Positions 1 through 24,499 of a DNA stretch of 32,850 nt are shown piece by piece. Origin of the DNA: a bacterium (GTDB lineage Bacteria; Patescibacteriota; Doudnabacteria; UBA920); contig JAJZRC010000006.1 of assembly GCA_021847435.1 (NCBI GenBank), positions 1 to 32,850 of the forward strand, written 5' to 3'. Below the pieces are notes generated by a model. That model saw only the letters and a program-made list of their open reading frames with translations, was not told where the DNA came from and searched no databases. Positions within the stretch are counted from its first letter, which is position 1. Each line of letters starts with the position of its first letter. Both the position numbers and the translations under genes were made by a program.

Positions 1-1
1 T

Positions 2-466: not shown

Positions 467-493
467 TTATCACTTGACACCCAAGAGTGCTAA
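467..493 (+). promoter_or_regulatory. CIRCE-type HrcA operator
   Basis: TTATCACTT-N9-GAGTGCTAA. Compared with consensus TTAGCACTC-N9-GAGTGCTAA, the left half is 7/9, the right half 9/9, the spacer exactly 9 nt. Located upstream of hrcA. Confidence 0.8.
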
Positions 494-503
494 ATGCTAA
501 CAT
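474..503 (+). promoter_or_regulatory. Sigma70-like promoter overlapping the CIRCE
   Basis: TTGACA (474-479), 18-nt spacer, TAACAT (498-503). Confidence 0.55.
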
Positions 504-522
504 GCATTTAGCGCTCTTTTTT
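483..522 (+). terminator. Putative intrinsic terminator of clpP overlapping the hrcA promoter/operator
   Basis: AAGAGTGCTAAATGC-TAACAT-GCATTTAGCGCTCTT stem (15 bp, one G-U) followed by a T run. Confidence 0.6.
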
Positions 523-623
523 GTTAACTGCTAATTAATGGAAAACTCTAAAATAACCTCAAGACAAGCCCGCCCTGGCTTCGCAGGGCGCAAACTTAAC
601 AGTTATCAATTTAGATAATATTT

Positions 624-1376: not shown

Positions 1377-1398
1377 CACGCCATATTGTTTAATTAAT

Positions 1399-1923
1399 AT
1401 GACAGACGAACAACAAAACGACAATAATCAGAATATTACATTAGAAAAGCTCCAGGCCGATTTAGACCAGGCCTTAAACGGATGGAAGCGGACAGCCGCG
1501 GACTTTGAAAACTATAAAAAACGCAAAGAGGCGGAAAACAAGGAATTAGTGGAATTTGCCAGCGAAGTGACAGTGGCAAAATTGCTGCCAACCTTGGACA
1601 CCCTGGAACAGGCATTAAAGCATTTGCCGGAGTACCGGAACGCCGGAGAGCCGGAAGTTCTGAATCCGGATTTTGAGAAACAATACCGGAACTGGCAGGC
1701 GGGCGTGGATGGGACCATAAAACAGCTGGATAAAGTTTTAGGGGAATTGGGGGTAAAAAAAATAGAAGCCTTGGGAAACAAGTTTGATCCGAATTTTCAC
1801 GAAGCCGTACGCGAGGTGGCAGGGGATGAGGATCAGGTTGTGGTGGAAGAACTGCAAACCGGCTTTGAATTGAACGGCAAAATTATTCGGCCTTCGCAGG
1901 TGGTCATTAGCAAAAAAAGGTAG
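1399..1923 (+). CDS. grpE: Nucleotide exchange factor GrpE
   Basis: LQADLDQALNGWKRTAADFENYKKRKE, C-terminal NFHEAVREVAGDEDQVVVEELQTGFELNGKIIRPSQVVISKK. Confidence 0.95.
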   Translation: MTDEQQNDNNQNITLEKLQADLDQALNGWKRTAADFENYKKRKEAENKELVEFASEVTVAKLLPTLDTLEQALKHLPEYRNAGEPEVLNPDFEKQYRNWQAGVDGTIKQLDKVLGELGVKKIEALGNKFDPNFHEAVREVAGDEDQVVVEELQTGFELNGKIIRPSQVVISKKR

Positions 1924-1998
1924 CGAATTATGCGTCAGTCATGGAGCAAATAAAATAACTGTCTTCCCGGTTGGGGACACAGAGAAAACAGCGAGCGC

Positions 1999-2292
1999 AT
2001 GAATATAAAAGACATGTTTGAGGTAGGGGCGATAATGGAAAGCGAAGACAAGGCTAAAAGCATTGCGGTTCTGGATGGAGACAACTGCGTGATAATGGGC
2101 AAGCTTCTGAATAAGAACAAGATTATTTTACAGATGAAGCGGCTGCTGGACGAATCCGCGGGGAATGTGTTCGTGAGGCTGAAAGACGAGTTCCATAAGG
2201 AGTTTTTGATATCCAAAAAATTGCTGGCCAGCAAGAAAGTTTTGGGCCTGACTTTAAATCAGTTTAAAAATTTTGAAATTTCGGAACTCTAA
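1999..2292 (+). CDS. Hypothetical protein between grpE and dnaK
   Basis: 97-aa ORF in the operon with no recognised family. Confidence 0.6.
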   Translation: MNIKDMFEVGAIMESEDKAKSIAVLDGDNCVIMGKLLNKNKIILQMKRLLDESAGNVFVRLKDEFHKEFLISKKLLASKKVLGLTLNQFKNFEISEL

Positions 2293-2396
2293 GCGGAAAT
2301 TTACAGCTTGAAAATTTAAATTTTGCCTTTTTTGGCTTTCGGGCCGGAACCGGCAAATCATATAAATTTAAATAAGATTAAGCAAGGAGAATATTT

Positions 2397-4298
2397 ATGT
2401 CAAAAATCATCGGTATAGACTTAGGCACTTCCAATTCCGCTGCCAGCGTCATGGAAGCGGGCAAGCCGGTAATCATTCCGGCCGCGGAAGGCGCGTCTTT
2501 GGGCGGCAAAGCCTTTCCGTCTTACGTGGCTTTTACCAAGGAAGGCCAGCTGCTTGTCGGGGAACCGGCGCGCCGCCAGGCCGTAACCAATCCGGAAGGC
2601 ACTATTTTTGAAGCCAAGCGCAAAATGGGCCAGAAGTTCAACTATACGGTTAACGGCAAGGATTATACCCCGGAACAGATCAGCGCTTTTATTTTGCAGA
2701 AAATCAAGAAAGACGCGGAGACTTTTTTGGGACAGCCCGTAGCCAAAGCGGTAGTTACCGTGCCTGCTTATTTTGATGATGCCCAAAGGCAGGCAACCAA
2801 GAATGCCGGCGAGATTGCCGGGCTGGAGATTGTGCGCGTAATCAATGAGCCGACCGCCGCGGCTTTTGCCTACGGCCTGGACAAGTCCGGAGCCAAGGAC
2901 CAGAAAATTCTGGTGTTTGACCTGGGCGGCGGTACGCTGGATGTGACCATTATGGATTTTGGCGAGCACGAAGGCCAGGCAACTTTCGAAGTGCTGTCCA
3001 CTTCCGGCGACACCCAGCTGGGCGGCAAGGATATGGACAAGGCCTTGATTGATTATTTGACCGCCACTTTCAAAACCGAAAGCGGCATTGACGTCTCCCA
3101 GGATAAAATGGCCATGAACCGGATCCGCGAGGCATCGGAAAAAGCCAAAATAGAATTATCCACCACTTTGGAAACCGATATTAACCTGCCGTTTATTACC
3201 GCGGACCAGAACGGCCCCAAACACCTGCAGCTTAAAATCACCCGGGCTAAGCTGGAAGAATTAATTAAGTCCATTGTGGACAGGATGCGCCATCCGGTGG
3301 AGCAGGCTATTAACGATGTTGCAAAAAAACTCGGCACTTCGTTCGGCCCCCAGAATATTGATAAGATTATTTTAATCGGCGGCCCTACCCGCATGCCGGC
3401 CGTGAAGAAATTCGTGGAGGATTTCATCGGCAAGGCGGTTGAAGGGGGCATTGATCCCATGGAAGCCGTAGCCAAGGGTGCGGCCATTCAGGGCGGCATT
3501 TTGGGCGGCGATGTCCAGGGCAAGGAAATTCTGCTTCTGGACGTAACTCCGCTGACTTTGGGTTTGGAAACCCTTGGCGGCGTGCGCACTCCATTGATTG
3601 AGCGCAACACCACCATCCCGACATCCAAAAGCCAGGTGTTTTCCACCGCGGCTGACAACCAGACTTCCGTGGAAATCCATGTACTGCAGGGCGAGCGCGA
3701 ATTCGCAACAGACAACAAATCGCTGGGCCGCTTTATTTTGGACGGCATTCCTCCGGCGCCCCGCGGCATTCCCCAGGTGGAAGTGGCTTTTGATATTGAT
3801 GCTAACGGCATTTTGACTGTCAAAGCCAAGGATAAAGCCACCAACAAAGAGCAGCATATTACCATTCAGGGCTCTTCTAATTTGAACAAGGACGAAATTG
3901 AACGCATGAAAAAAGAGGCCGAGGCTCACGCGGCCGAAGACCGCAAGCGCAAAGAAACCGTGGATGCCCGCAATCATGCCGATACTCTGATTTCGGTTTC
4001 CGAAAAAACTCTTAAAGATGCCGGCGATAAGGCCAAAGCCGAAGACCGCAGCGCGGTGGAAGAAAAAGTCAAAGCCTTAAAAGAGGTCAAGGACAAGGAC
4101 GATGTGGAGGCGATTAAAAAGGCCATGGATGCCTTGTCCGAAGCCGTGCAGAAAGTCGGCGCGGCTATGTACGAGTCCGGAAAGACAGACAAGCCGGAAA
4201 ATCAGAATACCGGAGGCTCCAGCCCGGAACAGGGCCCGTCGGCAGGCCCCGGAGCCGCAAGCGGACCGGTGGACGCGGAATTTAAGGAAGTAAAATAG
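2397..4298 (+). CDS. dnaK: Molecular chaperone DnaK (Hsp70)
   Basis: [80 protein letters not shown]-terminal [10 protein letters not shown]-like aaggag upstream. Confidence 0.98.
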
Positions 4299-4307
4299 TT
4301 TTGGTTT

Positions 4308-4335
4308 AAGCCTGCGGGCGGTTCCCGCGCGGCTT
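4308..4335 (+). terminator. Hairpin downstream of dnaK
   Basis: AAGCC-t-GCGGG-cggtt-CCCGC-gc-GGCTT inverted repeat. No strong T tract. Confidence 0.35.
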
Positions 4336-4354
4336 CAAAATTAAAAATATTGCC

Positions 4355-5098
4355 ATGTCAGCCAAAACTTTTTTGCTGCTGGTGTCCATCTTTTTAGCCG
4401 GTGCTTTTGCCTATTTAAGGATTCAGGCCGCCGGTTCGCCGGATTCTGAGTTTAACCGGACCACCCGGTATCGGCTGGGCCAAAATCAGCTCGTTCGCAG
4501 CGTCTTAAATTTACACCGCGCTGGAGATGCCCGAAGGTGGTATTTATCCGGCAGTTCCGCTTTGGTCATTGAGGTGGTTCAGGCCAAAGGCGGCAGCCTG
4601 GATGACGCGGTCATAGCGGATTTTGCGCAGAAAATAGGCGGGATATCGCGTCGCCCGGTTACCGTGTATAATACGGAAAAAATTCCCGAAGGCGCGCTGA
4701 ATGGCAGCGACCTCGCCCAAATCAGCAGTAAATTCAGGCGCCATGTCCTGTCGGGCCAGCCGAATTTATTTGTGGTATATGCTGAAGATTTGGCGGGTAG
4801 CGACGGTCAGGCGGCCCGGACCTTTGAGGAGTACGGCATCGCGCTTTCAGCCAAGAAAATTTCCGAAATGGCTGCCGGCCAGCCCCAAGCCTTGGCGGAC
4901 GCGCAGCGGCATTTGCTGCTGCACGAATTCGGGCACCAGCTGGGCCTTGCCGATAACGATTCGCCGGTATGCGTAATGCATCCCCAAACCGAATCCCTGT
5001 CCCGGCCAGTGGCGCTCAACGGCAAGTTCGCCGTGCTGGATTTTTGCAGCCAAGAATCGCAGCAGTTAAACGGATTGCAGCAAGCAGCAAATAATTAA
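4355..5098 (+). CDS. Secreted or membrane-anchored matrixin-like zinc metalloprotease
   Basis: N-terminal hydrophobic segment; HLLLHEFGHQLGLADNDSPVCVMHP fits HExxHxxGxxD plus a downstream Met. Confidence 0.75.
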   Translation: MSAKTFLLLVSIFLAGAFAYLRIQAAGSPDSEFNRTTRYRLGQNQLVRSVLNLHRAGDARRWYLSGSSALVIEVVQAKGGSLDDAVIADFAQKIGGISRRPVTVYNTEKIPEGALNGSDLAQISSKFRRHVLSGQPNLFVVYAEDLAGSDGQAARTFEEYGIALSAKKISEMAAGQPQALADAQRHLLLHEFGHQLGLADNDSPVCVMHPQTESLSRPVALNGKFAVLDFCSQESQQLNGLQQAANN

Positions 5099-5107
5099 TC
5101 TATATAT

Positions 5108-5398
5108 ATGGCAGAACAGCAACCCAACCAGGTGCAAGTTAAAATTAACGATGAAATACTCAAGGCCGTTTATGCCAACGGCGTGAATGTGGCTTATACC
5201 CCGGAGGAGTTTGTATTGGATTTTATGACCGTGTTTCCGCCCGCGGGAATTGTCAGCAGCAGGGTCGTGATGTCTCCCGGGCATATCAAACGGCTAGCCG
5301 GCGTCTTAAGCGAAAATATTAAGCGCTTTGAGGAGCAGCACGGGGAAATAAAGGCGGGCATTCAGAATGAACACAAGTTCGGGTTTAGAACGGAATAA
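5108..5398 (+). CDS. DUF3467-like protein
   Basis: VAYTPEEFVLDFMTVFPPAGIVSSRVVMSPGHIKRLAGVLSENIKRFEEQHGEI resembles DUF3467 family members. Confidence 0.75.
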   Translation: MAEQQPNQVQVKINDEILKAVYANGVNVAYTPEEFVLDFMTVFPPAGIVSSRVVMSPGHIKRLAGVLSENIKRFEEQHGEIKAGIQNEHKFGFRTE

Positions 5399-5470
5399 AT
5401 TATACAAACGGGTAACAAGAGACAAGCAACGAGGGCTTGCAGCTTGCTACCTGCAACTTGTCACTTGATT

Positions 5471-6619
5471 ATGGCCAAAGATTTTTATGACATTTTAGGC
5501 GTTTCCAAAACCGCTACCCAGGATGAAATTAAGCGGGCATTTAGAAAAAAAGCCCATGAGTACCATCCCGATAAGGGCAATGGCAACGCGGAAAAGTTCA
5601 AGGAAGTAAATGAAGCTTACCAGGTACTGTCAGACGCCGCCAAACGCCAGCGCTATGATCAGTATGGCTCGAATTTTGAACAGGCAGGCGGCTGGCAGGG
5701 CGGCAGCCCTTTCGGCGGGGGCGCTCAGGGCTGGGATTTTGGCAATTTTTCCGGCGGATTTGATTTTGGTTCGGATCTAGGCGATATTTTCGGCGATATT
5801 TTTGGTACCCGGCAGGAACGGTCGAGCCGCCGCAACCGCGGGGTCGACTTGGAAATGGGTATTGCGATCAGCTTTGAAGAAGCGGTTTTTGGCGTGGAAA
5901 AAGAAGCGGTCTTGGAAAAAAATGACGCGTGCAAAACTTGTGCGGGCAGCGGCGCGCAGCCGGAAAGCAAGATTGTAACTTGCCCTAAATGCCACGGACA
6001 AGGGCAAATTCGCACTACTACCAGAACGATTTTCGGCACCATGGCTTCCTCCATCGCCTGTGACCGCTGCCGGGGCATGGGCAAGCTCCCGGAAAATCCC
6101 TGCAAAACCTGCGGAGGCAGCGGTGTGCTGCGGCAGGAAAAAACCATTGCCGTAAAGATTCCGGCGGGTATTGATAATGGCCAGCGCATCCGTATTGCCG
6201 GAGAGGGGGAGGCCGGTTACCGGGGTTCCAGCCCGGGCGATTTATTTTTGGTTGTAAAAGTGGGCCCGTCAAAGGACTTTACCCGCGACGGCTTTACTTT
6301 AATGAAAGACTTGCCGGTGAGTTTTACCCAGGCTGCATTGGGAGCCAAAATTCTGGTAAAAACTTTGGATGGCGTAATTGAGCTGAAAGTCCCCGCCGGC
6401 ACCCAGAGCGGCACGGTCTTTAAGGTTAAAGACAAAGGGGTGCCGTATTTGAACGAAAAAAGCCGCCGCGGCAGCCTTTTAATTACGGTGCGCGTGGTTA
6501 TTCCAAAAAAACTTTCCAAAAAAGAAAAGGAACTCCTTGTGTCCATTGCCAATGAGCGGGGAGAGGTCGTGGAGGTGGATCAGGGTTTCTGGGACAGCAT
6601 CAAAGACGGTTTCCGTTAG
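5471..6619 (+). CDS. dnaJ: Molecular chaperone DnaJ (start reassigned from 5444 to ATG 5471)
   Basis: J domain MAKDFYDILGVSKTATQDEIKRAFRKKAHEYHPDKG with HPD; G/F region; zinc-binding CXXCXGXG-type repeats (CKTCAGSG, CPKCHGQG, CDRCRGMG, CKTCGGSG). Confidence 0.97.
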   Translation: MAKDFYDILGVSKTATQDEIKRAFRKKAHEYHPDKGNGNAEKFKEVNEAYQVLSDAAKRQRYDQYGSNFEQAGGWQGGSPFGGGAQGWDFGNFSGGFDFGSDLGDIFGDIFGTRQERSSRRNRGVDLEMGIAISFEEAVFGVEKEAVLEKNDACKTCAGSGAQPESKIVTCPKCHGQGQIRTTTRTIFGTMASSIACDRCRGMGKLPENPCKTCGGSGVLRQEKTIAVKIPAGIDNGQRIRIAGEGEAGYRGSSPGDLFLVVKVGPSKDFTRDGFTLMKDLPVSFTQAALGAKILVKTLDGVIELKVPAGTQSGTVFKVKDKGVPYLNEKSRRGSLLITVRVVIPKKLSKKEKELLVSIANERGEVVEVDQGFWDSIKDGFR

Positions 6620-6635
6620 TTTTTAAACCCCGGCA

Positions 6636-6657
6636 CTCCGCGGCTTAAGCCGCGGAG
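6636..6657 (+). terminator. Terminator-like perfect palindrome after dnaJ
   Basis: CTCCGCGGCTTAAGCCGCGGAG, 22-nt perfect palindrome shortly after the dnaJ stop. Confidence 0.5.
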
Positions 6658-6718
6658 CCGCCTTTATTTATGTTCCCGAATATGCTATAATTAATTTACA
6701 AAAATAAAAAATATTTTC

Positions 6719-7264
6719 ATGGCTTCCGCAAGCGAATTCAGCCAACTCATTCAAAATTTTAACTGGCATACTCCGTCCTGGGACTTGTTTATCATGCTTT
6801 TTTGGGCGGTGGCCAGTATTTTTTATGCTTTTGCCGCCGGGCGGGGGAGAATAATCAGCCTGCTGATGAGCTTGTACATAGCGAAGCTGCTGGTATTGCA
6901 GGCTCCATGGCTAACCAATGCCATAAACCAAAAACTTCCAAGCAGTTTGTCCAGCATACAGCAGCTGGTGAGTTTCTTGATTATTTTCATTATTTTGTTT
7001 GTGCTGCTGAGCCGCTATGCTTTCCGGACATCCGCAGACGGCAGGCATTTCGGTTCCATTGTTTTTACCTTGATCTTCGCCGTGCTGCAAGTCGGCCTGC
7101 TGATCAGCACGATTTTGGGCTATTTGGCGGTTTCCGGAAAAGAGTTTTCCCCGCTTGTCAGTTTTTTGTTTTTGTCCGGCACCTCGGCCTTTATTTGGCT
7201 TTTGGCGCCGCTGGCATATTTAATTATTTTGGGTCGCTCTGTGGCTGACCCTAGCGAAATATAA
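6719..7264 (+). CDS. Multi-pass membrane protein, CvpA-like appearance
   Basis: 181 aa with several hydrophobic helices. TATAAT (6686-6691) upstream. Confidence 0.6.
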   Translation: MASASEFSQLIQNFNWHTPSWDLFIMLFWAVASIFYAFAAGRGRIISLLMSLYIAKLLVLQAPWLTNAINQKLPSSLSSIQQLVSFLIIFIILFVLLSRYAFRTSADGRHFGSIVFTLIFAVLQVGLLISTILGYLAVSGKEFSPLVSFLFLSGTSAFIWLLAPLAYLIILGRSVADPSEI

Positions 7265-7268
7265 TTTT

Positions 7269-7649
7269 ATGAGACACACAATCTTGATGGTGGATGACGA
7301 CATGCTGATCCTGAATACTTTAAAAAAGCGTTTTGCCACCTGGGAAACCGAAGTTTACACGGCCAGCACGCCGGATGAGGCCAAAAAAATCCTTGCCAGC
7401 TTGACGCCGGAAATCGTTATTTTGGACCTGCTCTTGACCAAAGAAGACGGTTCTTCCGGCGTACTTGATTATTTGCACGGCGAGGAACGCCTAAAAAACG
7501 TCCCGGTGCTGGTATTGACCAACCTGGACAAGCCAGAGCTAAAGCAGATGCTCTTGTCCCAGGGCATAAAAGAATATTTGATTAAAGGCAGCATGACTCT
7601 GGACGACTTGTACGCCAAAGTAGCGGGATATTTGGAGCCGAAAAAATAA
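7269..7649 (+). CDS. Stand-alone response regulator receiver domain
   Basis: ILMVDDDMLIL, EIVILDLLLTKEDG (phospho-acceptor Asp), VLVLTNLD, and a Lys in KGSMT. No output domain. Confidence 0.88.
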   Translation: MRHTILMVDDDMLILNTLKKRFATWETEVYTASTPDEAKKILASLTPEIVILDLLLTKEDGSSGVLDYLHGEERLKNVPVLVLTNLDKPELKQMLLSQGIKEYLIKGSMTLDDLYAKVAGYLEPKK

Positions 7650-7658
7650 GCAGCAGAT

Positions 7659-8576
7659 TTACGCCCGCGACCAGCGGGCAAAAATTCCGGTGGAAATCAT
7701 TCTGCCGGAATTTTGTTTTAAGCAAAGCTCGCCGAACGTAATTTTGCCTTGAAGATTTTTTGTCGCGTCTTCCAGTAAATTTTGCAGAGCCAGAGCCGAG
7801 GAATTGGTGGCATATCCGTTGACCAGCAAAAATCTGGCATCTGGGGACAGCAGTTTTACGCAGTCGTTTAAGAGTTCGGGCAAATGCTCGTTGAATTTCC
7901 AGACTTTGCCGGAAGGAGACCGGCCAAATGCCGGCGGATCCATAATAATGCCGTCATAGCGCGCGCCGCGCTTGGCTTCGCGCTTGGCGAACTTGGCCGC
8001 ATCATCCAGGATCCAGCGGACTGCGGTTTGGGGAAGCTGGTTAAGCTTGCAGTTTTCCGAAGCCCAATTAAGGCTGGGCTTGGACGCGTCTACGTGGGTG
8101 ACCTGGGCCCCGGCCTTGGCCAAAACGACGGTGGCCCCGCCCGTATAGGCAAAAAGATTTAAGATTTTCAGCTGTTGGGATTGATGCGGGTTCGCAGTGC
8201 CAGAGGTTATATTTGGAATTGGAAATTTGGAATTGGAAATTTCTTTTAACATCCATTCCCAGTTCGCCGCCTGTTCCGCAAAAAGCCCCGTGTGTTTAAA
8301 GGGGGATAGGTGTAAATAAAACTTGATGCGGTTGAAAGCTATGGTCCAGCGATCAGGCACAGGCTTGTTGATTTTCCACTTGCCTTTTTCCCCGCCATGC
8401 CCCGCGACAAATACGGCGTGGGCGCGGTGCCAGTCCGCGGCCGGCAGGGTTTTTGGCCAGATGATTTGCGGGTCCGGCCGTGAGAGAATAATGTCGCCCC
8501 AGCGCTCCAAACGAAAACCGTCCCCGGTGTCCAGGAGTTCGAAATCGGGAAAATTTTTAAAATACAGCAGCTCCAT
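7659..8576 (-). CDS. Class I SAM-dependent methyltransferase, rRNA methyltransferase-like (RlmI/YccW type)
   Basis: KILNLFAYTGGATVVLAKAGAQVTHVDASKPSLNWASENCKLN and DGIIMDPPAFGRSPSGKVWKFNEHL. Confidence 0.8.
   Translation of the reverse strand: MELLYFKNFPDFELLDTGDGFRLERWGDIILSRPDPQIIWPKTLPAADWHRAHAVFVAGHGGEKGKWKINKPVPDRWTIAFNRIKFYLHLSPFKHTGLFAEQAANWEWMLKEISNSKFPIPNITSGTANPHQSQQLKILNLFAYTGGATVVLAKAGAQVTHVDASKPSLNWASENCKLNQLPQTAVRWILDDAAKFAKREAKRGARYDGIIMDPPAFGRSPSGKVWKFNEHLPELLNDCVKLLSPDARFLLVNGYATNSSALALQNLLEDATKNLQGKITFGELCLKQNSGRMISTGIFARWSRA
8212..8242 (+). repeat. Two perfect tandem copies of TTTGGAATTGGAAA plus TTT, inside the methyltransferase CDS
   Basis: tttggaattggaaa tttggaattggaaa ttt read directly. 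Confidence 0.9.
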
Positions 8577-8578
8577 AA

Positions 8579-8947
8579 TTATTCCTGTTCAGCCAAAGTA
8601 ATATCGCCCAGCATAAAATTTTGCAGGGAGCCTTGGTAGGTAACCCTTACCTGCTTGCCCAAAAGCCGGTTGAAGTCGCGGCTGGTTTGGATGTAAATGA
8701 CTTGTGCGGATGTTTTGAGCAGTAAATTTCCCTTGTCAGGATTGTCTGATTTTTCCAAAAGCCCTTCCCAGACATTAATTTGGGGTTTTTCCGCGGCAGC
8801 CGGCGGGTTGGCGTTCCGGGACGGCTCAGGACTGGCAGGCTTGTTGAAGCGCCGGCTGAAATTTGAATTTGCCGCTGCCCAGACAGCCAACAGTGCGATT
8901 GCTGCCGCAGCTGTCCATAGATACGCGGGTTTGATTTTAATTGCCAT
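8579..8947 (-). CDS. Membrane-anchored hypothetical protein (start probably internal ATG; ORF extends to 9007)
   Basis: MAIKIKPAYLWTAAAAIALLAVWAAANS signal-anchor followed by a Pro/Ala linker and a small globular domain. Confidence 0.6.
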   Translation of the reverse strand: MAIKIKPAYLWTAAAAIALLAVWAAANSNFSRRFNKPASPEPSRNANPPAAAEKPQINVWEGLLEKSDNPDKGNLLLKTSAQVIYIQTSRDFNRLLGKQVRVTYQGSLQNFMLGDITLAEQE

Positions 8948-9072: not shown

Positions 9073-9145
9073 GGGTTCGTAGCTCAGTTGGTAGAGCAGC
9101 GGCCTTTTAAGCCGTTTGTCGTGGGTTCGATCCCTACTCGCTACA
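9073..9145 (+). tRNA. tRNA-Lys(UUU)-like, possibly chimeric or degenerate (acceptor stem mismatched, no encoded CCA)
   Basis: D arm, anticodon arm (loop CTTTTAA) and T arm intact, but 5' GGGTTCG does not pair with 3' TCGCTAC. Confidence 0.6.
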
Positions 9146-9175: not shown

Positions 9176-9251
9176 GGGACGGTAGCTCAGCTGGTAGAGC
9201 AGCGGCCTTTTAAGCCGTTTGTCCCGGGTTCGACCCCCGGCCGTCCCACCA
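9176..9251 (+). tRNA. tRNA-Lys(UUU) with encoded CCA
   Basis: GGGACGG/CCGTCCC acceptor, CCGGG-TTCGACC-CCCGG T arm, anticodon loop CTTTTAA, ACCA end. Full cloverleaf. Confidence 0.96.
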
Positions 9252-12548: not shown

Positions 12549-12597
12549 GCTCGTGGCGACACGGCATCCTGGCCGCCGTCTGCGGTCGACAGGCGGA
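12549..12597 (+). promoter_or_regulatory. GGTCGACA-containing intergenic element, copy upstream of the khpA-like gene
   Basis: GCTCGTGGCGACACGG...GGTCGACAGGCGGA. Confidence 0.5.
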
Positions 12598-12624
12598 AAC
12601 GAAAGAAAATAAAATCAGAAAATT

Positions 12625-12903
12625 ATGCTACAAGATAAAGAATTGCTGGAAGAAATCCTCAAGGCGATGGTCAAACAGCCCGAAGCGGTCCAGGTGGACA
12701 GAAACGTGGACGAGATGGGTGTTTTGCTTTCCGTGAAAGTCGGAGACGGAGATGCGGGCATCGTAATCGGAAAAGAAGGCCGCGGCATCCAGGCGCTCCG
12801 GACTATCATGAACACTGTCGGCCGCCGGGTCAACGCCAGAGTTAACATCAAACTCCTGGTGCCGGAACTGGCGGGACATACCCGCCGCAGCGAAATTGAT
12901 TAA
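12625..12903 (+). CDS. KhpA-like KH-domain RNA-binding protein, phage-encoded
   Basis: LLEEILKAMVKQPEAVQVDR...VLLSVKVGDGDAGIVIGKEGRGIQALRTIMNTVGRRVNARVNIKLLVPE: KH GxxG-type loop and KhpA-like length. Confidence 0.82.
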   Translation: MLQDKELLEEILKAMVKQPEAVQVDRNVDEMGVLLSVKVGDGDAGIVIGKEGRGIQALRTIMNTVGRRVNARVNIKLLVPELAGHTRRSEID

Positions 12904-14820: not shown

Positions 14821-15435
14821 ATGCCCAAACAAGTCCTCACAACCTCAAAGATGCCCGGAGAAACTGAACAGCAGTATACTGCATGGCTTTTATATTGCGA
14901 TGCAGGCAGCCTGGACAAGCTCCACCGGCTGTGGGAAGGATTGCACCAGGGCTTCACTGAAATTGCACCAGAAATTGCTGCTTTAAGAGGCCGTCTTGGG
15001 AGTGTACCCGTGCGTAGAACTTTAGCCTACTGGTCAAAAAAATATTGCTGGGTAGAAAGAAAAGACTTGAAATTAACGGAAGATTTAGTAGGTATCAGAA
15101 AACGGTCAAAAGAAATTACACAGAAAAAACTTGGAATTATTGGTGAACTGATGTGGGAGAAATTTCAAGGAATAAAAAGACAGATTAAAAAAGGCGAGAT
15201 TGCGACGGTGGATGAGGCAAAAAAACTATGGGAAATGTTCCGTACCGAGATGGGAGAATCCCTGGGCAAGCACGAGTTAAACATCAACGAAAACGAACAG
15301 CAGCCGCCAACTAACGGGGAGATGGCCGAGTTTGAAAGCATAAGCCGGGAATTCAAGGAGTTTTATGAACAACGCAGACGACCTGGAAAAGAAACTGGTA
15401 ACCTACTGGATCGCAAAAAACAAGATAAAAAATGA
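14821..15435 (+). CDS. Putative terminase small subunit
   Basis: Position immediately upstream of and overlapping terL; HTH-like N-terminus (PVRRTLAYWSKKYCWVERK). Confidence 0.6.
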   Translation: MPKQVLTTSKMPGETEQQYTAWLLYCDAGSLDKLHRLWEGLHQGFTEIAPEIAALRGRLGSVPVRRTLAYWSKKYCWVERKDLKLTEDLVGIRKRSKEITQKKLGIIGELMWEKFQGIKRQIKKGEIATVDEAKKLWEMFRTEMGESLGKHELNINENEQQPPTNGEMAEFESISREFKEFYEQRRRPGKETGNLLDRKKQDKK

Positions 15436-16909
15436 GGGTGGCGAACTAATAGAATTCGGCGACCACCGTTTCCTGTGGGAAATTTATGATGACCAAAGCC
15501 CTGTACTGGTCATCCGCAAAGGTTCACAAATCGGTGCCAGCACAATGGAAGTCCTGAAGACTTTCCACGCCGCGCGCTTTTGGGGAATCAACCAGATTTA
15601 TACTCTGCCGACAGTGGATGACGTGGCCGAATTTGTGAAAAGCAAAGTCAACCGCATCCTCAAAGTAAACCCCTGCATCCGCGACGGCGTAAGTTCAAAA
15701 GACGTCGATTCGGTAGAGCAAAAACAAATCGGCAAAGCATTTTTGTTTTTCAAAGGCACATACACAGAAAAAGAAGCCATAATGCTAACCTCGGACCGCA
15801 ACATCCACGACGAACTGGACAAATCCAAGCCGGAAGTTATTCGGGATTACATGAGCCGCATCGGCTTTTCCAAAATCCGGAGCCAGCATTACTTTTCCAC
15901 TCCGACCGTTCCCGACGTAGGCGTGGACAAGCTTTTTGCCCAGTCCGACCAGAAATACTGGCGCTTTAACTGTCCCCGTTGCAGCTACCGTCAGCACATG
16001 GAGTGGGAGAAAAATGTAGACCGGGAGCGCAAAATTTACGTCTGCCAAAAATGCCGCAGGGAAATTACATCAAGACAGGTTTGCGACCTCGGCAGATGGG
16101 AGGCAAAGTTTCCCGGCGAAGCCGCAAGCGGCTACTGGATAAACCAGATGATGTGCCCCTGGAGAACCGCCGCCGACCTGCTCAAGGAAGAATCACTGGC
16201 CGAAGATACCCAGTATTTTTACAACTTCGTCCTGGGACTGCCCTACCTCCCGGCCGATCTGCGAATCCCGGCCAGCCTTTTCCTAAAAAATCTTACGGAA
16301 ATAAATGCGGCATCCGAAGGAGGCAATGTCATGGGAGCGGATACCGGCAATGAAAACCATATTGTCATAGGCAACAAAAAAGGAATATTCTGGATCGGAA
16401 AACTTAAAGACCGTCCCAACCGGACGCGCTGGCAGCAGATGGCAGAACTCATCCAATTTTACGACATCCGCACCTGCGTGGTCGACGCCATGCCGTGGAC
16501 CGAGGAAGCGTTGCTGCTGGCCAAAAAATTCCCTTACCGGGTTTACGTGAATTTTTACAAAGAAGATCCGAAGATGCTGGAAGTGGTCAGATGGAACGAC
16601 GACAAAGAAGGCGAGGAAAAAGAATTCGAAGACGAAGTCAAAGTCCTGACCTCCCGCAACAGAATTATTGACGACACTATTTCATCGCTGCGGCGCGGGG
16701 AAATAAGGTTTGCCATGCCAAAAGATTCCCCGGCCTTCCGGATGCTGATGGACCACGCCCAGACAATGTACTCGAGAACCATAACCGACAAGCTTGGGCA
16801 GGAAAAGCGCGAATGGGAATCCACTACCGGCGCAGACCACCTCTGGCACGCACTCATCTATTGGCATATTGCATTAAAAAAGCGAAACAAATATGAACCC
16901 AACCGCTAA
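15365..16909 (+). CDS. terL: Phage terminase large subunit (GpA-like)
   Basis: SPVLVIRKGSQIGASTMEVLKTFHAARF (ATPase), CPRCSYRQHMEW...CQKCRREI zinc-binding cysteines, C-terminal nuclease-like region MGADTGNENHIVI...CVVDAMPWTEEA. Confidence 0.85.
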   Translation: MNNADDLEKKLVTYWIAKNKIKNEGGELIEFGDHRFLWEIYDDQSPVLVIRKGSQIGASTMEVLKTFHAARFWGINQIYTLPTVDDVAEFVKSKVNRILKVNPCIRDGVSSKDVDSVEQKQIGKAFLFFKGTYTEKEAIMLTSDRNIHDELDKSKPEVIRDYMSRIGFSKIRSQHYFSTPTVPDVGVDKLFAQSDQKYWRFNCPRCSYRQHMEWEKNVDRERKIYVCQKCRREITSRQVCDLGRWEAKFPGEAASGYWINQMMCPWRTAADLLKEESLAEDTQYFYNFVLGLPYLPADLRIPASLFLKNLTEINAASEGGNVMGADTGNENHIVIGNKKGIFWIGKLKDRPNRTRWQQMAELIQFYDIRTCVVDAMPWTEEALLLAKKFPYRVYVNFYKEDPKMLEVVRWNDDKEGEEKEFEDEVKVLTSRNRIIDDTISSLRRGEIRFAMPKDSPAFRMLMDHAQTMYSRTITDKLGQEKREWESTTGADHLWHALIYWHIALKKRNKYEPNR

Positions 16910-17365: not shown

Positions 17366-18469
17366 ATGATGGACAACATCCCAAAGCGGAAACTTTTTAT
17401 AGGAGGAGGAATAACTGCCGTCGTAATTATCCTTTTAGGAATCGGCTACTGGTTCGCTTTTGCCGCACCCCAGAAACAAACCGGAACGGAAACCTTTATT
17501 GTGCCGCTTAAAACCTCCCGGCAGGGGGCAATCAAAATCCTGCGTGATAAAGGATTTATAAAACACGAATGGGCACTCAAGGTGATATGGGATTTGGAAG
17601 GATTCGACGACCTTACTATTCAGCCGGGAGGATACCAAATTTCCAAAAGCGACTCTCCTTGGAAAATCGCACAGGTCTTGGCGTACAAACAAAACATGAA
17701 ATGGGTTGTTATTCCGGAGGGGTGGAGAAAAGAACAGATAGCGGATCTTTTGGCATCAACCTTCAAATGGGAACCCAAAGTTAAAGATATTTGGGTCAAC
17801 ACCCTGACCGCAATGAAGTTTGATTACGTGGAAGGAGTTTACTTCCCCGACACTTACCTCATCCCCGTAGATGAAAGTCCCCAGCAGATAGCCGAACGGA
17901 TGCGCCGGAGATTTGACGAAAAATTCGTTCCCTATGCGAAAGAAGCGGCAAATCAAAATATCAAATGGACCACGGCCCTTAAACTGGCCTCCATTGTCCA
18001 GCGCGAAGCCGGCGGGAAAGACGACATGCCAGTTATAGCAGGCATCCTCTGGAATCGCCTGCTTAAGGATATGAAACTGGAAGTAGATGCGACGGTGCAA
18101 TACGCCAGGGATTCCAAACTGGCTTATGATAATGATCCTTGCGAGGATCCGAACAGCGACCAGCGCCAGGTGGGCAGCTGCTACAACCCCGAACGGATGC
18201 AGATGACAGCAGCTTATGTTGGTATAAAAGACTGGTGGAAACCCATAACCCCGGCCGACAAGGAACTCGGCTCGCTTTATAATACCTACCTTTACAAAGG
18301 CCTCCCTCCGCATCCGATAGATAATCCCGGATTGGATGCCATCAACGCAGTCCTCCATCCTGCGGAAACCGAATGCCTGTACTACCTCCACGACAGCAAC
18401 CGGCAAATCCATTGCGCCAAAACTTACGAAGAGCATTTAAACAACATCAGCCAGTATCTCAAGAATTAA
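17366..18469 (+). CDS. mltG: MltG/YceG-type endolytic transglycosylase in the phage module
   Basis: Single N-terminal TM helix; LASIVQREAGGKDDMPVIAGILWNRL, LEVDATVQYA, YNTYLYKGLPPHPIDNPGLDAINAVLHP, YYLHDSNRQIHCAKTYEEHLNNI. Confidence 0.93.
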   Translation: MMDNIPKRKLFIGGGITAVVIILLGIGYWFAFAAPQKQTGTETFIVPLKTSRQGAIKILRDKGFIKHEWALKVIWDLEGFDDLTIQPGGYQISKSDSPWKIAQVLAYKQNMKWVVIPEGWRKEQIADLLASTFKWEPKVKDIWVNTLTAMKFDYVEGVYFPDTYLIPVDESPQQIAERMRRRFDEKFVPYAKEAANQNIKWTTALKLASIVQREAGGKDDMPVIAGILWNRLLKDMKLEVDATVQYARDSKLAYDNDPCEDPNSDQRQVGSCYNPERMQMTAAYVGIKDWWKPITPADKELGSLYNTYLYKGLPPHPIDNPGLDAINAVLHPAETECLYYLHDSNRQIHCAKTYEEHLNNISQYLKN

Positions 18470-18508
18470 CAAATTAGTCAGTCCCGCTTCTGCCCCAAGC
18501 CGGTTGGA

Positions 18509-18539
18509 GCTTGTGGCGCACGGAGGGGTCGACAGGGCG
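18509..18539 (+). promoter_or_regulatory. GGTCGACA-containing intergenic element, copy upstream of 18573
   Basis: GCTTGTGGCGCACGG...GGTCGACAGGGCGGA; compare 12549-12597 and 20031-20041. Confidence 0.5.
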
Positions 18540-18572
18540 GAGAATCGAAATTAAAAAGAAACTAAAAGGAAT

Positions 18573-19379
18573 ATGGCTAAAAAAAATTACGTGATCGGCG
18601 CGGGAATACTGGCAGTAGCAGCAGGCCTCGCAATCGGTATAACCGGAGGGTTTCAGGCTGGCAAAGCCAGTCCTGTTTCAGCCTCAGTGCAAACCGTAGC
18701 CGGTCCGCTCACCAATGAAAAGGTGGAAGCCTTAAAGGCTGGCCTGGACAAAGTTGCCCAGTATGAGCTGGCGTACGGCTGTACCACGACCGACAAGTTC
18801 GGACGGAAGGAGTTCTGCGGAGAATCAAAACAAAAAGTTGATAGCCTGCATGCACAGCTTGCAGCCGAAGTCAGGAAGCTCCAGCAGCGCGATCCGGCAG
18901 CAGTGGCAGCCGTGGTCTCTAATATCCGGGTGCTCACAGGAGACTCAAATCTGGCAGTGGAATTTGACAGCAGTGCTGCCAACCCCTACACAGTCGGCAA
19001 TTCATTACGCATTGAACAATACCGAGACGCAAAAGGATTTGTGTACCTCGTAAATCCCGCTACCGATAAAGTTGTTCAAATGGGTCCGGGTCCGGACAGC
19101 AAAATCCGGTTTGCGGCATCCCCCAGGCTGACGACAGATCAGCTTCGCGGCAAAGCTCAAAATTTTCTTGCCGGCAAGGTCGATGGTTTCGACCAGGTTA
19201 AGTCGGACTTCTCCTACAGGGAAATGTCCAAGCCTGGCAATATGAGCTACGCATTCCGCTGGGAAGCCAGGAGCGTTCCCGCGGGCGAAGAAATGGCGCC
19301 GTTCGTCCAGGTGGTACTATCGCCGGCCGGTGAAGTCATGAGCTTCAACGACACCCGCAGCCTGTATTCCCAAAACTAA
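18573..19379 (+). CDS. Secreted or membrane-anchored PepSY-like protein (cassette 1, gene A)
   Basis: N-terminal hydrophobic signal; YRDAKGFVYLVNP, LTTDQLRGKAQNFLAGKV, VQVVLSPAGEVMSF motifs shared in order with 20081-20881. Confidence 0.65.
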   Translation: MAKKNYVIGAGILAVAAGLAIGITGGFQAGKASPVSASVQTVAGPLTNEKVEALKAGLDKVAQYELAYGCTTTDKFGRKEFCGESKQKVDSLHAQLAAEVRKLQQRDPAAVAAVVSNIRVLTGDSNLAVEFDSSAANPYTVGNSLRIEQYRDAKGFVYLVNPATDKVVQMGPGPDSKIRFAASPRLTTDQLRGKAQNFLAGKVDGFDQVKSDFSYREMSKPGNMSYAFRWEARSVPAGEEMAPFVQVVLSPAGEVMSFNDTRSLYSQN

Positions 19380-19380
19380 A

Positions 19381-19917
19381 ATGAACAAACTCTTTAAACA
19401 AGCTGGTATATTGGTCATTACGGCGGTTTTGGGATTAGTGGCTAAACCGGTTTTCGCGACAAACTACTACATGGCCAACGGCGGCTCGTACTGGGTGCAG
19501 ATAGGCTCGGAATGGCATACCATAAATAATGACGGCTATTGCGTAAGTGGCAGAGGGCCGTGCGGTTCCAGCCTGTGGTATCTGCAATGGTCGTATAACA
19601 CGGCCAATTGCAGCGCAACCGAAGCGGGACACTGGAACGCAGCCCAAGTACTACCGAACAACGGGTCAGTATATGCCTGGATAGATAGTTCCGCCGGTAA
19701 TATGAGCGGAGCTGATTACAGTGTTACCTACAATTACGGAAGCAACCTGAGCATGACCGTGGATCAAAGCCCCTACTATGAAGCCTGGGATCCGGTAATT
19801 ACGGGTTTGTACAGAATTGAGGGAGTAACACTGACCGATGGCTGGGGAAACCTAAACCCCTGCAACCCGACAACCGGCCTGATAGTAGAATTTGATGAGA
19901 TAAAACTGGTGATTTAA
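19381..19917 (+). CDS. Secreted protein with golvesin C-terminal-like beta domain (cassette 1, gene B)
   Basis: Signal peptide; NGSVYAWIDSSAGNMSGADYSVTYNYGSNLSMTVDQSPYYEAWDPVITGLYRIEGVTLTDGWG...IVEFDEIKLVI. Confidence 0.6.
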   Translation: MNKLFKQAGILVITAVLGLVAKPVFATNYYMANGGSYWVQIGSEWHTINNDGYCVSGRGPCGSSLWYLQWSYNTANCSATEAGHWNAAQVLPNNGSVYAWIDSSAGNMSGADYSVTYNYGSNLSMTVDQSPYYEAWDPVITGLYRIEGVTLTDGWGNLNPCNPTTGLIVEFDEIKLVI

Positions 19918-20030
19918 CCAGACGGTCATGCGATAGAAGGAACTTTTTCCAACCGCCAAAGCTCCTTCGCAAATTATTCTAAAATTTCTTGCCCGTTATT
20001 GACAACGGGTTGGCGAAATCAATAACAACA

Positions 20031-20041
20031 GGGGGTCGACA
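20031..20041 (+). promoter_or_regulatory. GGTCGACA element, copy upstream of 20081
   Basis: gggggtcgaca 40 nt before the ATG, preceded by hairpin CCCGTT-attgac-AACGGG (19992-20009). Confidence 0.45.
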
Positions 20042-20080
20042 AGAAATGAAATTAACCAAAATAAAGGATTACATCAGATT

Positions 20081-20881
20081 ATGAAAAGATATTACAAAAC
20101 AGCATTGTTCGTTGGAGCTCTGACGCTGGCCCTGGCCGGAGTCGGAACGGTTAAAGCCCTCCAGCTTAAAAAGGCTGATGAAACCCGGCTAAAGCAGGCA
20201 ATGAAGCCCGTTGTTCCGGTCGGCGAACGCACGGTGGATTTGATCGGAATATTCCCTCCGGGGTTTGATACCGAAGTCTCCTCCGCCAAAGCCGATTACG
20301 AAAAGGAGTACGGCACTGGCAACTTCCAGGTTGTCAACTATAAGGGATACACTATCATTGTGCCTCCTGCGAAAAGCGGCGAACTGGCGAAGTCTGAACA
20401 GGACGTAGATACGCAAATCGCGTCCGCGCAAAACGACACGCCTTCCACCAGCTTGCAGGCATCCCAGATTGCGGAAATCCGCAACGTATTCGGTACGGCT
20501 GGCGAGGTTGCCTATAACCCTTTGATGGGAGCGTATACTGATGAAAAAGGATTCCAGTATAACTTCTACAAAGGCGAGCTTATGGGCAAGCAAGTCGGCG
20601 TAACCAGCAGCCTCGCGGCAAAATTCGACAGCGCATACCCCTACTTCAAAGAGGGCGCCGTGCCTGCCGGAGCAGCAGCCCTGACCGAAGCCCAGGCTAA
20701 AACGCAGGCTGATAAAGTCGTGGCAAAAGCGCTGGGTTCAAACGCAGGCACGGTTATGGCCAAAGCCGGTTTTCTGCCGCTTAGCGGACCAAGGCTTGGC
20801 ATCACTTATGGCGACAACGAAGTGCAGGTGCTGGTTGACACGGTCAGCGGGGACGTAATCCACTTCAGCAGGAGCAAATGA
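20081..20881 (+). CDS. Secreted or membrane-anchored PepSY-like protein (cassette 2, gene A)
   Basis: N-terminal hydrophobic signal; YTDEKGFQYNFYKG, LTEAQAKTQADKVVAKAL, VQVLVDTVSGDVIHFSRS. Confidence 0.65.
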   Translation: MKRYYKTALFVGALTLALAGVGTVKALQLKKADETRLKQAMKPVVPVGERTVDLIGIFPPGFDTEVSSAKADYEKEYGTGNFQVVNYKGYTIIVPPAKSGELAKSEQDVDTQIASAQNDTPSTSLQASQIAEIRNVFGTAGEVAYNPLMGAYTDEKGFQYNFYKGELMGKQVGVTSSLAAKFDSAYPYFKEGAVPAGAAALTEAQAKTQADKVVAKALGSNAGTVMAKAGFLPLSGPRLGITYGDNEVQVLVDTVSGDVIHFSRSK

Positions 20882-20882
20882 C

Positions 20883-21419
20883 ATGAACAAATTTAAATTC
20901 GTTCTGGCTTCGCTCATTGCTGCGGTGGCATTCACAACCTCGGGCGTAGGCGTTACACAGGCCTCTATTTACAACTTCTGTCCGGGAACTGCCGGACTGA
21001 GCGGATGGTGGGGATCAATTTCCCCGTCCTATAGGCACTGCACCAACGACTACTACACCTGGAATACCAACAGCGGTCTGGGCAATGAGGAATCATGGTT
21101 TAAGACGGATCCGCACTACCTTGCATGCCAGTACTCCTCCACTAACGATCCGGGAAATATTCCCGCCAAGGTCTACATCCCGTCTCCTGATTCCCAGCAG
21201 ACTAATAATGGCGCGCACTACTACAGGTGGTACAATAGCAGCAACTACGTTATGATCGGCTCGGTCAACCAGTATTCGGTATTCGGTACCGCATGGCTGA
21301 ACACCGTGGACTGGAGCCAGTTCGACATGCTGAAGCTTACCGACTACACCAACGATACAGGGTACCACGCCAAGCACGTGGATCTGGACGAAGTCAGCTT
21401 TGACTGCTACTTCAAATAG
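20883..21419 (+). CDS. Secreted protein with golvesin C-terminal-like beta domain (cassette 2, gene B)
   Basis: Signal peptide; NIPAKVYIPSPDSQQTNNGAHYYRWYNSSNYVMIGSVNQYSVFGTAWLNTVDWSQFDMLKLTDYT...KHVDLDEVSF. Same length (178 aa) as 19381-19917. Confidence 0.6.
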   Translation: MNKFKFVLASLIAAVAFTTSGVGVTQASIYNFCPGTAGLSGWWGSISPSYRHCTNDYYTWNTNSGLGNEESWFKTDPHYLACQYSSTNDPGNIPAKVYIPSPDSQQTNNGAHYYRWYNSSNYVMIGSVNQYSVFGTAWLNTVDWSQFDMLKLTDYTNDTGYHAKHVDLDEVSFDCYFK

Positions 21420-21442
21420 CCAAAACTAAGCAGCAAAAAGAA

Positions 21443-21468
21443 GAGGCCTCTTCCAACTAAGAGGCCTC
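21443..21468 (+). terminator. Strong hairpin at end of cassette 2
   Basis: GAGGCCTCTT-CCAACT-AAGAGGCCTC, 10-bp perfect stem. Confidence 0.55.
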
Positions 21469-21535: not shown

Positions 21536-21844
21536 ATGCGTATTCATATAGACTCGGAGGTGGAAAAATTTATATATTCCCTGGAAAAACAAACGATCGC
21601 CAAGACTTTAAGAACAATCGATTTATTGGAAAAGTTCGGCAACAAGCTCGCCATGCCCCACAGCAAAAAAGTAACGGGCAATATTTTTGAATTGAGGATC
21701 AGGGGCCAGCAGGAAGTAAGAATATTTTATTGTTTCCATAAAGACCAAATCCGCCTGTTGTCCGGGTTTGTCAAAAAATCCCAAAAAACGCCGGCAAAAG
21801 AACTGCTTAAAGCCGGCAATAAATATAAGAATTTAACGCCTTGA
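21536..21844 (+). CDS. higB: HigB/RelE-type (Gp49-like) toxin
   Basis: LEKFGNKLAMPHSKKVTGNIFELRIRGQQEVRIFYCFHKDQIRLLSGFVKKSQKTPAKEL. Confidence 0.88.
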   Translation: MRIHIDSEVEKFIYSLEKQTIAKTLRTIDLLEKFGNKLAMPHSKKVTGNIFELRIRGQQEVRIFYCFHKDQIRLLSGFVKKSQKTPAKELLKAGNKYKNLTP

Positions 21845-21869
21845 CAGAATATAACCTATAGAGTATATT
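21841..21869 (+). promoter_or_regulatory. Consensus-like promoter between toxin and antitoxin
   Basis: TTGACA (21841-21846), 17-nt spacer, TATATT (21864-21869). Confidence 0.65.
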
Positions 21870-21903
21870 GTATTTAGCAGACATTAACAAGACTGGAGTA
21901 TAT

Positions 21904-22176
21904 ATGAGCAGCTATAAAAACTTTAAAAAACAACTCTTAAAGGATAAGGAGATCAAAAAAGCCTACAAAGACTTGGGACCGGAATTTGCCGTGGTCGAAA
22001 TGATCATAGAAAAACGCCTTAAGGAAGGACTAACCCAAAAAGAGCTGGCTAAAAAAGCCAACACCAAACAACCGGTCATCTCCCGCCTGGAACGCGGCGA
22101 CTTCAGCCCTTCCCTGCAATTTCTGTACAGGCTGACTGAAGCACTGGGAGCAAAGTTGGAAGTTTCTATTTCTTAA
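21904..22176 (+). CDS. higA: HigA-type XRE-family antitoxin (start reassigned from TTG 21868)
   Basis: LTQKELAKKANTKQPVISRLERGDFSPSLQFLYRLTEALGAKLEVSI. Confidence 0.88.
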   Translation: MSSYKNFKKQLLKDKEIKKAYKDLGPEFAVVEMIIEKRLKEGLTQKELAKKANTKQPVISRLERGDFSPSLQFLYRLTEALGAKLEVSIS

Positions 22177-22413: not shown

Positions 22414-24321
22414 ATGGCGGAAGAAAATCCTGCAAAAGAACAAAAAATTAAGACTGAAAAACCGGAAAACCCCGGCAGGTATTCGCCGTCTGCCGATGAA
22501 CAGGCACTCATTGAAAAATGGAAGAAGCGGTTTAACCGCGCGGAGGAATTCTTAAGGCCCTACCGCGCCAAATGGCTTCGGATGTACAAGCTCTACCGGG
22601 CTTACCAGGAAAAAACCAACTACGCATACCAGACCAGACTGATGCCGCCTATAGCTTTTCAAATTGTAGAAACGGTTGTATCGAGAATCGCCGTGGCCAA
22701 ACGCAAGACGAGGGTACTTCCCCGGGACAGGAAAGACGTGGAATCCAAAGCCATCCAGTCATGGGACGACCTGGTCAACTATGATTTTGATGCCATGAGG
22801 CTGGAAAAGAAAATGCCGAGGTGGTTAAGGTCTACCAGCACTTACGGCAACGGCATAGCCAAAGTGACTTGGGCGGTTGACGAGGCTGCCGGATACGATG
22901 ATCCGTTTATGGTTATCTGCGACCTTTGGGACATCCTCCCCGCTCCGGAAACCGAGGATTTGCAGGATGACTGCCCGTGGCTGATACACCGTATCATAAA
23001 GTTTAAGGACCAGCTCGAACGGGATGAGAAAGCCCGAGGCGACAACCCTATTTATAAAAACCTGGAATTCGTTCAGCCAACCCAGGTGGAAGACTGGAAA
23101 AAAGTACGGTATGAACTAAACCAGAAAAAAATCGGACAAATCCAGACTACCGAATCAAAGGAAACCGAAGGCGGCACCATTAAAGTCGTTGGTGAAAAGT
23201 ACGAAAAGGAAAAACAGCTAGAGCTGTGGGAATGCTGGGACTTTGAAGAAGGAAAACTCATAACCATCGCCAACCGCGAAGTTCTGATTCGCAACGATGG
23301 CAACCCATACCAGAAAGTCAACAACGGCCGCATCTTCATAAACCTTCCCGACCATGAACTGAACTGGGAATTCTGGGCCGTGGGACACATCGAACCCGTG
23401 GAAACCGTGATCGTGGAAATAGCCGACTTGCGCAACCAGCGCATGGACGACGTGATACTGATGCTCGACCCTGTAATCAAGATTCGCAAGGATGCCGGCA
23501 TTTCCAAAAATGATATCGTATTCGCTCCCGGTGCCAAGTGGGAACTTCGCAAGATGGATGACGTGGTAGTAGAAAAACTCCCCGACGTAAACTTCTCCGG
23601 CATCAACGAAGAAAAAATGCTGCGGGACGAGATAGAAAGAACGCTGGCAATTTCCGAATATGCCCAAGGCATGCCCAAGTCGGCAACCGAACCTTTGGGC
23701 AAGGTGGCCATGCTCATAAGCCAGGGCAACCTGCGTTTAAGCTCGCTGGCGCAAAACGTGGCAAATGCGCTAAGCCTCCTCGCCAACATTCTCATTGCCA
23801 TGAACCAGGAATTTTTGGGACAGGACAAGCTCTACCGTATTGTCGGCGACCAGGTCAGCTTTAAGGAATTCAAACTGGCAGACAAGGAAGTAAAGGTTGA
23901 CGCGATAGTGGAAGTCGAACCCGTGGTGCCGCCCGACCAGGACGCCAGGCTCAATAAGGCCATGCTGTTGTATACCAAGTTCGTGGCCGAAGACAAGCCG
24001 GACGTAAATGATACTGGCGAAGTGACGGCATGGAAAAAGCGCAAGCGGTTTATTCAGGAAATGATTTTGGATGAGCTGGACAAGTCCGCCTACAAAACAA
24101 TACTGCTCGGCAGCGATGCGCAACCGCCTGAAAAGTCTGAAGCCCCTGCCCCCCAGCCGCCCCCATCCCTTCCCGGCCCCGTTCCGGAATTACCGGCCGA
24201 AGCAGTTCCCCAAAAACCGCCGGGATTTTTCCAAAGACTGCTTTCAAAACTTCCCGTTATCGGCAAAAGTCAAAATAATTTTAAACAACCAAACCAACAA
24301 CGTTATGGCAAAAAACAGTGA
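22414..24321 (+). CDS. Phage portal protein
   Basis: 635 aa; PPIAFQIVETVVSRIAVAKRKTRVLPRD, STYGNGIAKVTWAVDE, Pro-rich C-terminus; position between terminase and capsid. Confidence 0.75.
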   Translation: MAEENPAKEQKIKTEKPENPGRYSPSADEQALIEKWKKRFNRAEEFLRPYRAKWLRMYKLYRAYQEKTNYAYQTRLMPPIAFQIVETVVSRIAVAKRKTRVLPRDRKDVESKAIQSWDDLVNYDFDAMRLEKKMPRWLRSTSTYGNGIAKVTWAVDEAAGYDDPFMVICDLWDILPAPETEDLQDDCPWLIHRIIKFKDQLERDEKARGDNPIYKNLEFVQPTQVEDWKKVRYELNQKKIGQIQTTESKETEGGTIKVVGEKYEKEKQLELWECWDFEEGKLITIANREVLIRNDGNPYQKVNNGRIFINLPDHELNWEFWAVGHIEPVETVIVEIADLRNQRMDDVILMLDPVIKIRKDAGISKNDIVFAPGAKWELRKMDDVVVEKLPDVNFSGINEEKMLRDEIERTLAISEYAQGMPKSATEPLGKVAMLISQGNLRLSSLAQNVANALSLLANILIAMNQEFLGQDKLYRIVGDQVSFKEFKLADKEVKVDAIVEVEPVVPPDQDARLNKAMLLYTKFVAEDKPDVNDTGEVTAWKKRKRFIQEMILDELDKSAYKTILLGSDAQPPEKSEAPAPQPPPSLPGPVPELPAEAVPQKPPGFFQRLLSKLPVIGKSQNNFKQPNQQRYGKKQ

Positions 24322-24499
24322 AAATCAAATTCCCTCCAAAACAGTTACGGTCATAAGCAAAACCATGAGCGGCGGCGACTTATTGGTTACGCTCCAGGAA
24401 AGTCAGGGCTGCGTGCATACCCTGCAATTGAAAAAAGAGGATTCCGCGCAGCTGGATTTAGGAGACAAAATAAAAATCACAATACAAAAGGTCGAATAA
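24305..24499 (+). CDS. Small hypothetical protein (start reassigned from 24071)
   Basis: ATG 24305 overlaps the portal stop; 64 aa. Confidence 0.5.
   Translation: MAKNSENQIPSKTVTVISKTMSGGDLLVTLQESQGCVHTLQLKKEDSAQLDLGDKIKITIQKVE

Follow-up and report, generated by a model that had tools for sequence, protein, structure and literature searches.

The interval between the terminase (TerL) and portal genes of a Patescibacteria prophage could serve as a cargo bay, in which an endolytic murein transglycosylase (MltG) and exported proteins of two types, here called A and B, would be co-regulated with head genes and act on the host wall during infection; this reading is held tentatively, at a probability of roughly 0.4. 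Taken as a whole, this zone looks like an exchangeable collection of envelope genes linked to phage late genes. Phage entry into and exit from ultra-small CPR cells are little understood. The phage-owned MltG seen repeatedly here and the exported proteins linked to it provide concrete genes to test, and the leader motif, which ties the exported genes to head genes, provides a concrete regulatory element.

Gene organization of the prophage

The window, i.e., the whole stretch of DNA analyzed (32,850 nucleotides), is an entire contig (C26) of a tiny, Doudnabacteria-type Patescibacteria genome of 1.0 Mb. Host chromosome occupies bases 1-8600 (hrcA, grpE, dnaK, dnaJ) and is followed by a tRNA-Lys and then by a prophage reaching the contig end, so that the contig stops within the prophage and the right prophage end lies beyond it. 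The prophage encodes, in order, an AAA protein, a KhpA-type KH protein, a ParB-like/methyltransferase, TerL, a small protein, MltG, A1, B1, A2, B2, a Gp49/HTH pair, portal, capsid, and amidase (Table 1). An earlier note, made from the bare sequence, had described A1, B1, A2, and B2 as two pairs of genes with N-terminal signals between terminase and portal; the four reading frames, their lengths, and their placement were recovered as described, and putative signal or other hydrophobic segments are visible at the N-termini of the proteins. The full MltG directly upstream and the leader common to A1 and A2 were absent from that note.

A tRNA-Lys fragment lies just upstream of the intact tRNA-Lys (9079-9134 and 9176-9251, 93% identity) and is possibly an integration scar. 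The Gp49-like/HTH pair after B2 (21536-22176) resembles a toxin-antitoxin system and has a GC content of 0.40, compared with about 0.50 nearby; the prophage of another genome, G002, also has this pair. Between dnaK and dnaJ, within the heat-shock operon of the host, lies a gene (4355-5098) whose protein matches matrixin weakly (PF00413, E 0.0054).

Table 1. Positions of the phage features discussed, in window coordinates
Feature	Coordinates	Strand	Evidence
KhpA-type KH protein	12625-12903		PF13083, E 1.1e-18
TerL	15365-16909		phrog_675, E 7e-99
MltG (YceG) endolytic murein transglycosylase, phage-lineage copy	17366-18469	+	PF02618, 227 bits (cut-off 32.4)
A1 leader, GGTCGA motif at 18527	18484-18540	+	Decamer GGGGTCGACA common with A2 leader
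A1, predicted membrane-anchored, 268 aa	18573-19379	+	ORF; family in other genomes; AlphaFold model
B1, putatively secreted, golvesin-like protein, 178 aa	19381-19917	+	ORF; Golvesin_C below cut-off
A2 leader, GGTCGA motif at 20034, possible stem	19984-20047	+	Shared decamer; hexamer scan
A2, putatively exported or anchored, A position, 266 aa	20081-20881	+	ORF
B2, putatively secreted, probable distant B1 relative, 178 aa	20883-21419	+	ORF; B profile z 3.15-3.35
Portal	22414-24321		phrog_156, E 2.6e-13

A phage-lineage MltG beside the A genes

The gene upstream of A1 encodes a full MltG whose family score lies above the cut-off, and its catalytic region aligns to that of 4IIW with a kept glutamate, which we take to be the catalytic residue by reference to E. 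coli MltG. Most phage MltG copies across CPR genomes share 50-57% identity, with closer pairs between the window and G002 (85%) and between G034 and L030 (91%), and the host copy (contig C25) is only about 31% identical to the phage copies. An A gene has MltG, or a fragment resembling it, as its neighbor in the window, G002, G034, L030, L025, G224, G176, and G075, with the fragments of G075 and G176 being weak matches. Furthermore, MltG and two other exported-looking genes lie between TerL and portal on an IMG/VR contig (L101). The PHROGs gave no credible match to the phage MltG (E 0.031), and the INPHARED phages yielded distant matches only, none above 30% identity and many from short unannotated records.

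The A family

Relatives of A1, the named ones mostly from Candidatus Doudnabacteria, were found in G034 (53-55% identity), G001 (about 42%), G003 (about 40%), and G021 (35-38%), with distant members in G075, G002, G224, G176, and others. The members in G001, G003, and G021 have neither MltG nor B nearby, which counts against the main reading. An AlphaFold model of A1 built from ten sequences (pLDDT 74.6) comprises a low-confidence N-terminus, where the hydrophobic segment lies, together with a helical hairpin and two units that each combine one helix with four strands. A1 is predicted to be anchored in the membrane and to have two tandem alpha-beta4 domains of the cystatin/PepSY-like type. The PDB matches of this model were weak, and the best of them, copper amine oxidase entries, reached only E 4.6e-3, which also counts against the main reading; the N-terminal domains of these oxidases are presumably cystatin-like. 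Matches to DUF4901 (YcdB/YcdC) were obtained for 6 of 10 A relatives, all sub-threshold (best 17.6 bits, cut-off 27), with A1 itself unmatched and no A member reaching the gathering score. These sub-threshold hits agree with the cystatin-like pointer from the oxidase matches, DUF4901 being grouped with PepSY.

None of the four proteins matched a described family above cut-off, and neither A nor B had a relative among the INPHARED phages. Searches of solved structures with the A and B profiles returned nothing credible, Foldseek against viral models returned nothing below E 0.001, and A, B, and MltG were all without a match in PADLOC. In the G002 prophage, the bay (L022 5810-11288) additionally encodes a protease of the matrixin family (PF00413, E 2.6e-7), and its A protein carries a fused N-terminal domain that is also found by itself.

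The B family and recurrence of the A-B pair

Against the Pfam family Golvesin_C (PF25275), B1 scored 16.4 bits (E 0.0096) and its G075 relative 19.1 bits (E 0.0015), both below the cut-off of 31.6 bits. The golvesin-like pattern that had been read from the sequence is thus borne out as a sub-threshold likeness, with B1 falling short of the gathering score. When the pair was sought in other genomes and phages, A1-B1 was found again in four other loci (G034, L025, L030, and G075), and B1 relatives were located solely right behind an A gene. Since G034, L025, and L030 represent one close phage lineage, the four loci are not independent cases. A more distant B protein (B_G002) occupies the position behind A in G002.

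The A-B-A-MltG segments of L025, a contig assigned to Dehalococcoidales, and of L017, a Doudnabacteria contig, are almost identical, for which misbinning and a shared element are the suggested alternatives. In G034 (L017 12195-19001, and L069) and L030 (11732-16699), the bay extends into genes for a response regulator and a kinase and a Fic-like gene, and that of G034 also has restriction-modification-like genes; no portal was recognized in the stretch read from either.

A GGTCGA motif in the leaders of A1, A2, khpA, and head-module genes

The decamer shared by the two leaders, GGGGTCGACA, precedes the start codon by 48 nt for A1 and 49 nt for A2. An unbiased scan covering 33 phage gene leaders gave GGTCGA as the top hexamer, which occurs before khpA, A1, A2, and three head-module genes at 24523, 27639, and 28136 (p 5e-7; the best 1% of shuffles reached 6e-5). 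This statistic takes genes as independent and concerns a motif spotted by eye before the scan. GGTCGA or GGTCGG stands 32-38 nt ahead of four genes of the head module, the capsid gene included (sites at 24490, 26307, 27605, and 28104), which makes the motif a candidate leader element of the phage as a whole, and in the related prophage of G002 the capsid gene likewise has GGTCGG before it. GGTCGAC precedes both A and khpA in G034 and in L030, GGCCGAC precedes the G002 A gene, and on L101 one exported-looking gene in the TerL-portal interval has a GGTCGAC leader. The motif is absent from the G075 and G224 phages, which counts against the main reading. A looser scan for GG[TC]CG[AG], run over coding sequence as well, added terL and B1, among others, to the list, and the unbiased hexamer scan was therefore relied on.

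The motif lies beside a possible stem in several leaders (combined p 3e-4 with mononucleotide shuffles), and the khpA leader carries GGTCGAC in a short possible hairpin (window 12584-12903; L017 3421-3755; L030 from 2960). RNAalifold on a plain MAFFT alignment of the leaders gave a weak result, Rfam had no family at the leaders, and folding energies were not consistently better than those of shuffles, so that structure in the leader RNA is no more than suggested. The phage KhpA-type protein could be the regulator of the motif. Consensus promoter and terminator scans were uninformative as to whether the pairs have their own promoter or terminator. By eye, GGTTGG in the leader (18500-18508) faces CCAACC in a hairpin after B (19936-19968), with GATTGG and CCAATC as counterparts in G034 and equivalents in L017 and L022, and a loop-loop pairing across the cassette is possible.

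These results bear on the earlier proposal of lysogenic-conversion (moron) genes, for example a surface adhesin plus partner, in which B would coat the lysogen and bind sugars or neighboring cells, A would anchor B, and the gain would be a surface advantage or a superinfection block. Export signals, a golvesin-like B, and variable cargo between the same phage genes speak for such a proposal, but the GC content shows no marked difference (A1 0.54, B1 0.49, phage 0.48-0.51), the leader is common with head-module genes and khpA, and a phage-lineage MltG recurs in the zone beside A. Because of these last two observations, a self-contained moron is less favored than the cargo bay, and the adhesin or moron reading is regarded as possible but rather unlikely.

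Relationship between the two pairs

Gene order, lengths, leader, and coupling are alike in the two pairs, the gap within each pair being 1 nt, and an old tandem duplication of the whole cassette had been proposed. Pairwise BLASTP was not significant for either half (A1-A2 E 0.33, B1-B2 E 0.91), and against shuffles the A1-A2 comparison gave a chance-level local alignment (z 0.05) and a global p of 0.02. A2 and B2 were also scored with family profiles against shuffles and real ORFs. On the B profile, only B_G002 and the B proteins already known scored above B2 in a set of 180 ORFs (p 0.002 for the mature protein), and the C-terminal half of B2 alone scored lower (z 1.1-1.9); on the strength of this profile result B1 and B2 are probably related, B2 being the distant member. 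A2, in contrast, was unsupported as a relative of A1 by the A-family PSSM (z 1.6-1.95), the conserved-block test (p 0.35), and hhalign (rank 70 of 171). The motifs cited in the earlier note are present, among them YxDxKGFxY in both A proteins (YRDAKGFVY in A1, YTDEKGFQY in A2), although the overall pairwise similarity stays at chance level for A and for B.

Among the approaches set aside, an early 9-sequence profile placed A2 in the expected register of the A family (E 0.016), a match that was lost with a larger profile, and a structure model of A2 from its single sequence was unusable (pLDDT 39). A1-A2 duplication by sequence found no support from BLAST, shuffles, hhalign, PSSM, or conserved blocks.

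The duplicated cassette is thus supported as regards layout, leader, and the B2 profile and unsupported as regards A. Judging from these comparisons, the A halves would have been replaced or have diverged beyond detection, with common descent detectable in the B halves only; a common fold of A1 and A2 may be compatible with the absent sequence signal. Alternatively, A2 and B2 could be unrelated orphans under a copied leader, their equal lengths and order being coincidental. This would account for an A2 that matches no A member, for the non-significant B1-B2 comparison, and for the lack of clear relatives elsewhere (A2 in 380 genomes, B2 in 49 genomes, and both in viral contigs and the phage collection), but it has to set aside the profile support for B2, the identical decamer at the same offset, and the repeated order, lengths, and coupling, and we consider it unlikely.

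Proposed role at the host wall

Given the gene content and synteny described above, it is reasonable to suggest that the recurrent element of the bay would be a phage-lineage MltG flanked by one or more membrane-anchored A proteins, followed in some phages by a small secreted, golvesin-like B whose gene lies a few bases from the A gene or overlaps it. In the window, a second A-position/B pair follows the first and has its GGTCGA leader in common with it, and this shared leader would set both pairs in the same expression program as the head genes. MltG would cut nascent glycan strands, the anchored A proteins may hold, tune, or localize this wall enzyme, as PepSY-bearing YpeB does with SleB, and the B proteins may bind outside the membrane; the joint outcome could be host wall remodeling for virion release or against competing phages. 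Our results also raise the more general, and in our estimation rather improbable, proposal that Patescibacteria phages carry their own wall-remodeling module, comprising MltG, anchored cystatin/PepSY-like partners, and secreted B, which would be switched together with head genes through GGTCGA, a motif that also precedes a phage KhpA-type RNA-binding protein as possible regulator.

The precedents for control by PepSY-bearing proteins suggest MltG as a possible target of A, or else a sensor in those elements of the G034 type that have a kinase next to them. Modulation of a sensor kinase as the general role, with A acting as DbfQ does on DbfS and B as a secreted output or ligand, would draw on the A-B-A-MltG group directly followed by response regulator and kinase in L017 and L030, on a WalK-YycH model that ranks low in the PDB list for A1, and on reports that PepSY genes lie near two-component genes far above chance and that DbfQ binds DbfS (PMC12714742), but the pairs of the window, G002, G075, and G224 all lack a neighboring kinase gene, and we regard it as quite improbable.

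Comparison with known systems

B1 and its G075 relative match Golvesin_C over the same stretch, and both differ from it in their low scores, B1-type proteins having an additional N-terminal part. The repeated domain of YcdB/YcdC is likewise matched weakly, at the second unit of the A relatives, below cut-off and with A1 left unmatched. The pairs resemble phage morons as accessory exported genes within a structural module, whereas here the leader is common with core phage genes and MltG recurs as a neighbor instead of a random insertion.

Another parallel is YpeB-SleB of Bacillus, in which a tandem alpha-beta, PepSY-type protein works together with a spore lytic transglycosylase; this is an analogy only. 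No sequence match to YpeB was found, the partner here would be MltG, and the location is in a phage. The PepSY-bearing protein interacts with SleB and inhibits it in vitro, which favors the main reading, but the inhibiting part is the N-terminal domain of YpeB and not the PepSY region, which counts against it (PMC6660665). PepSY-bearing proteins are also linked to penicillin-binding protein control in passages of the CopD paper (PMC10653890). The upstream gene itself is a full member of MltG/YceG with the catalytic region aligned, and it differs from the known enzyme in being a phage-lineage copy that lies between TerL and portal and is separate from the MltG of the host.
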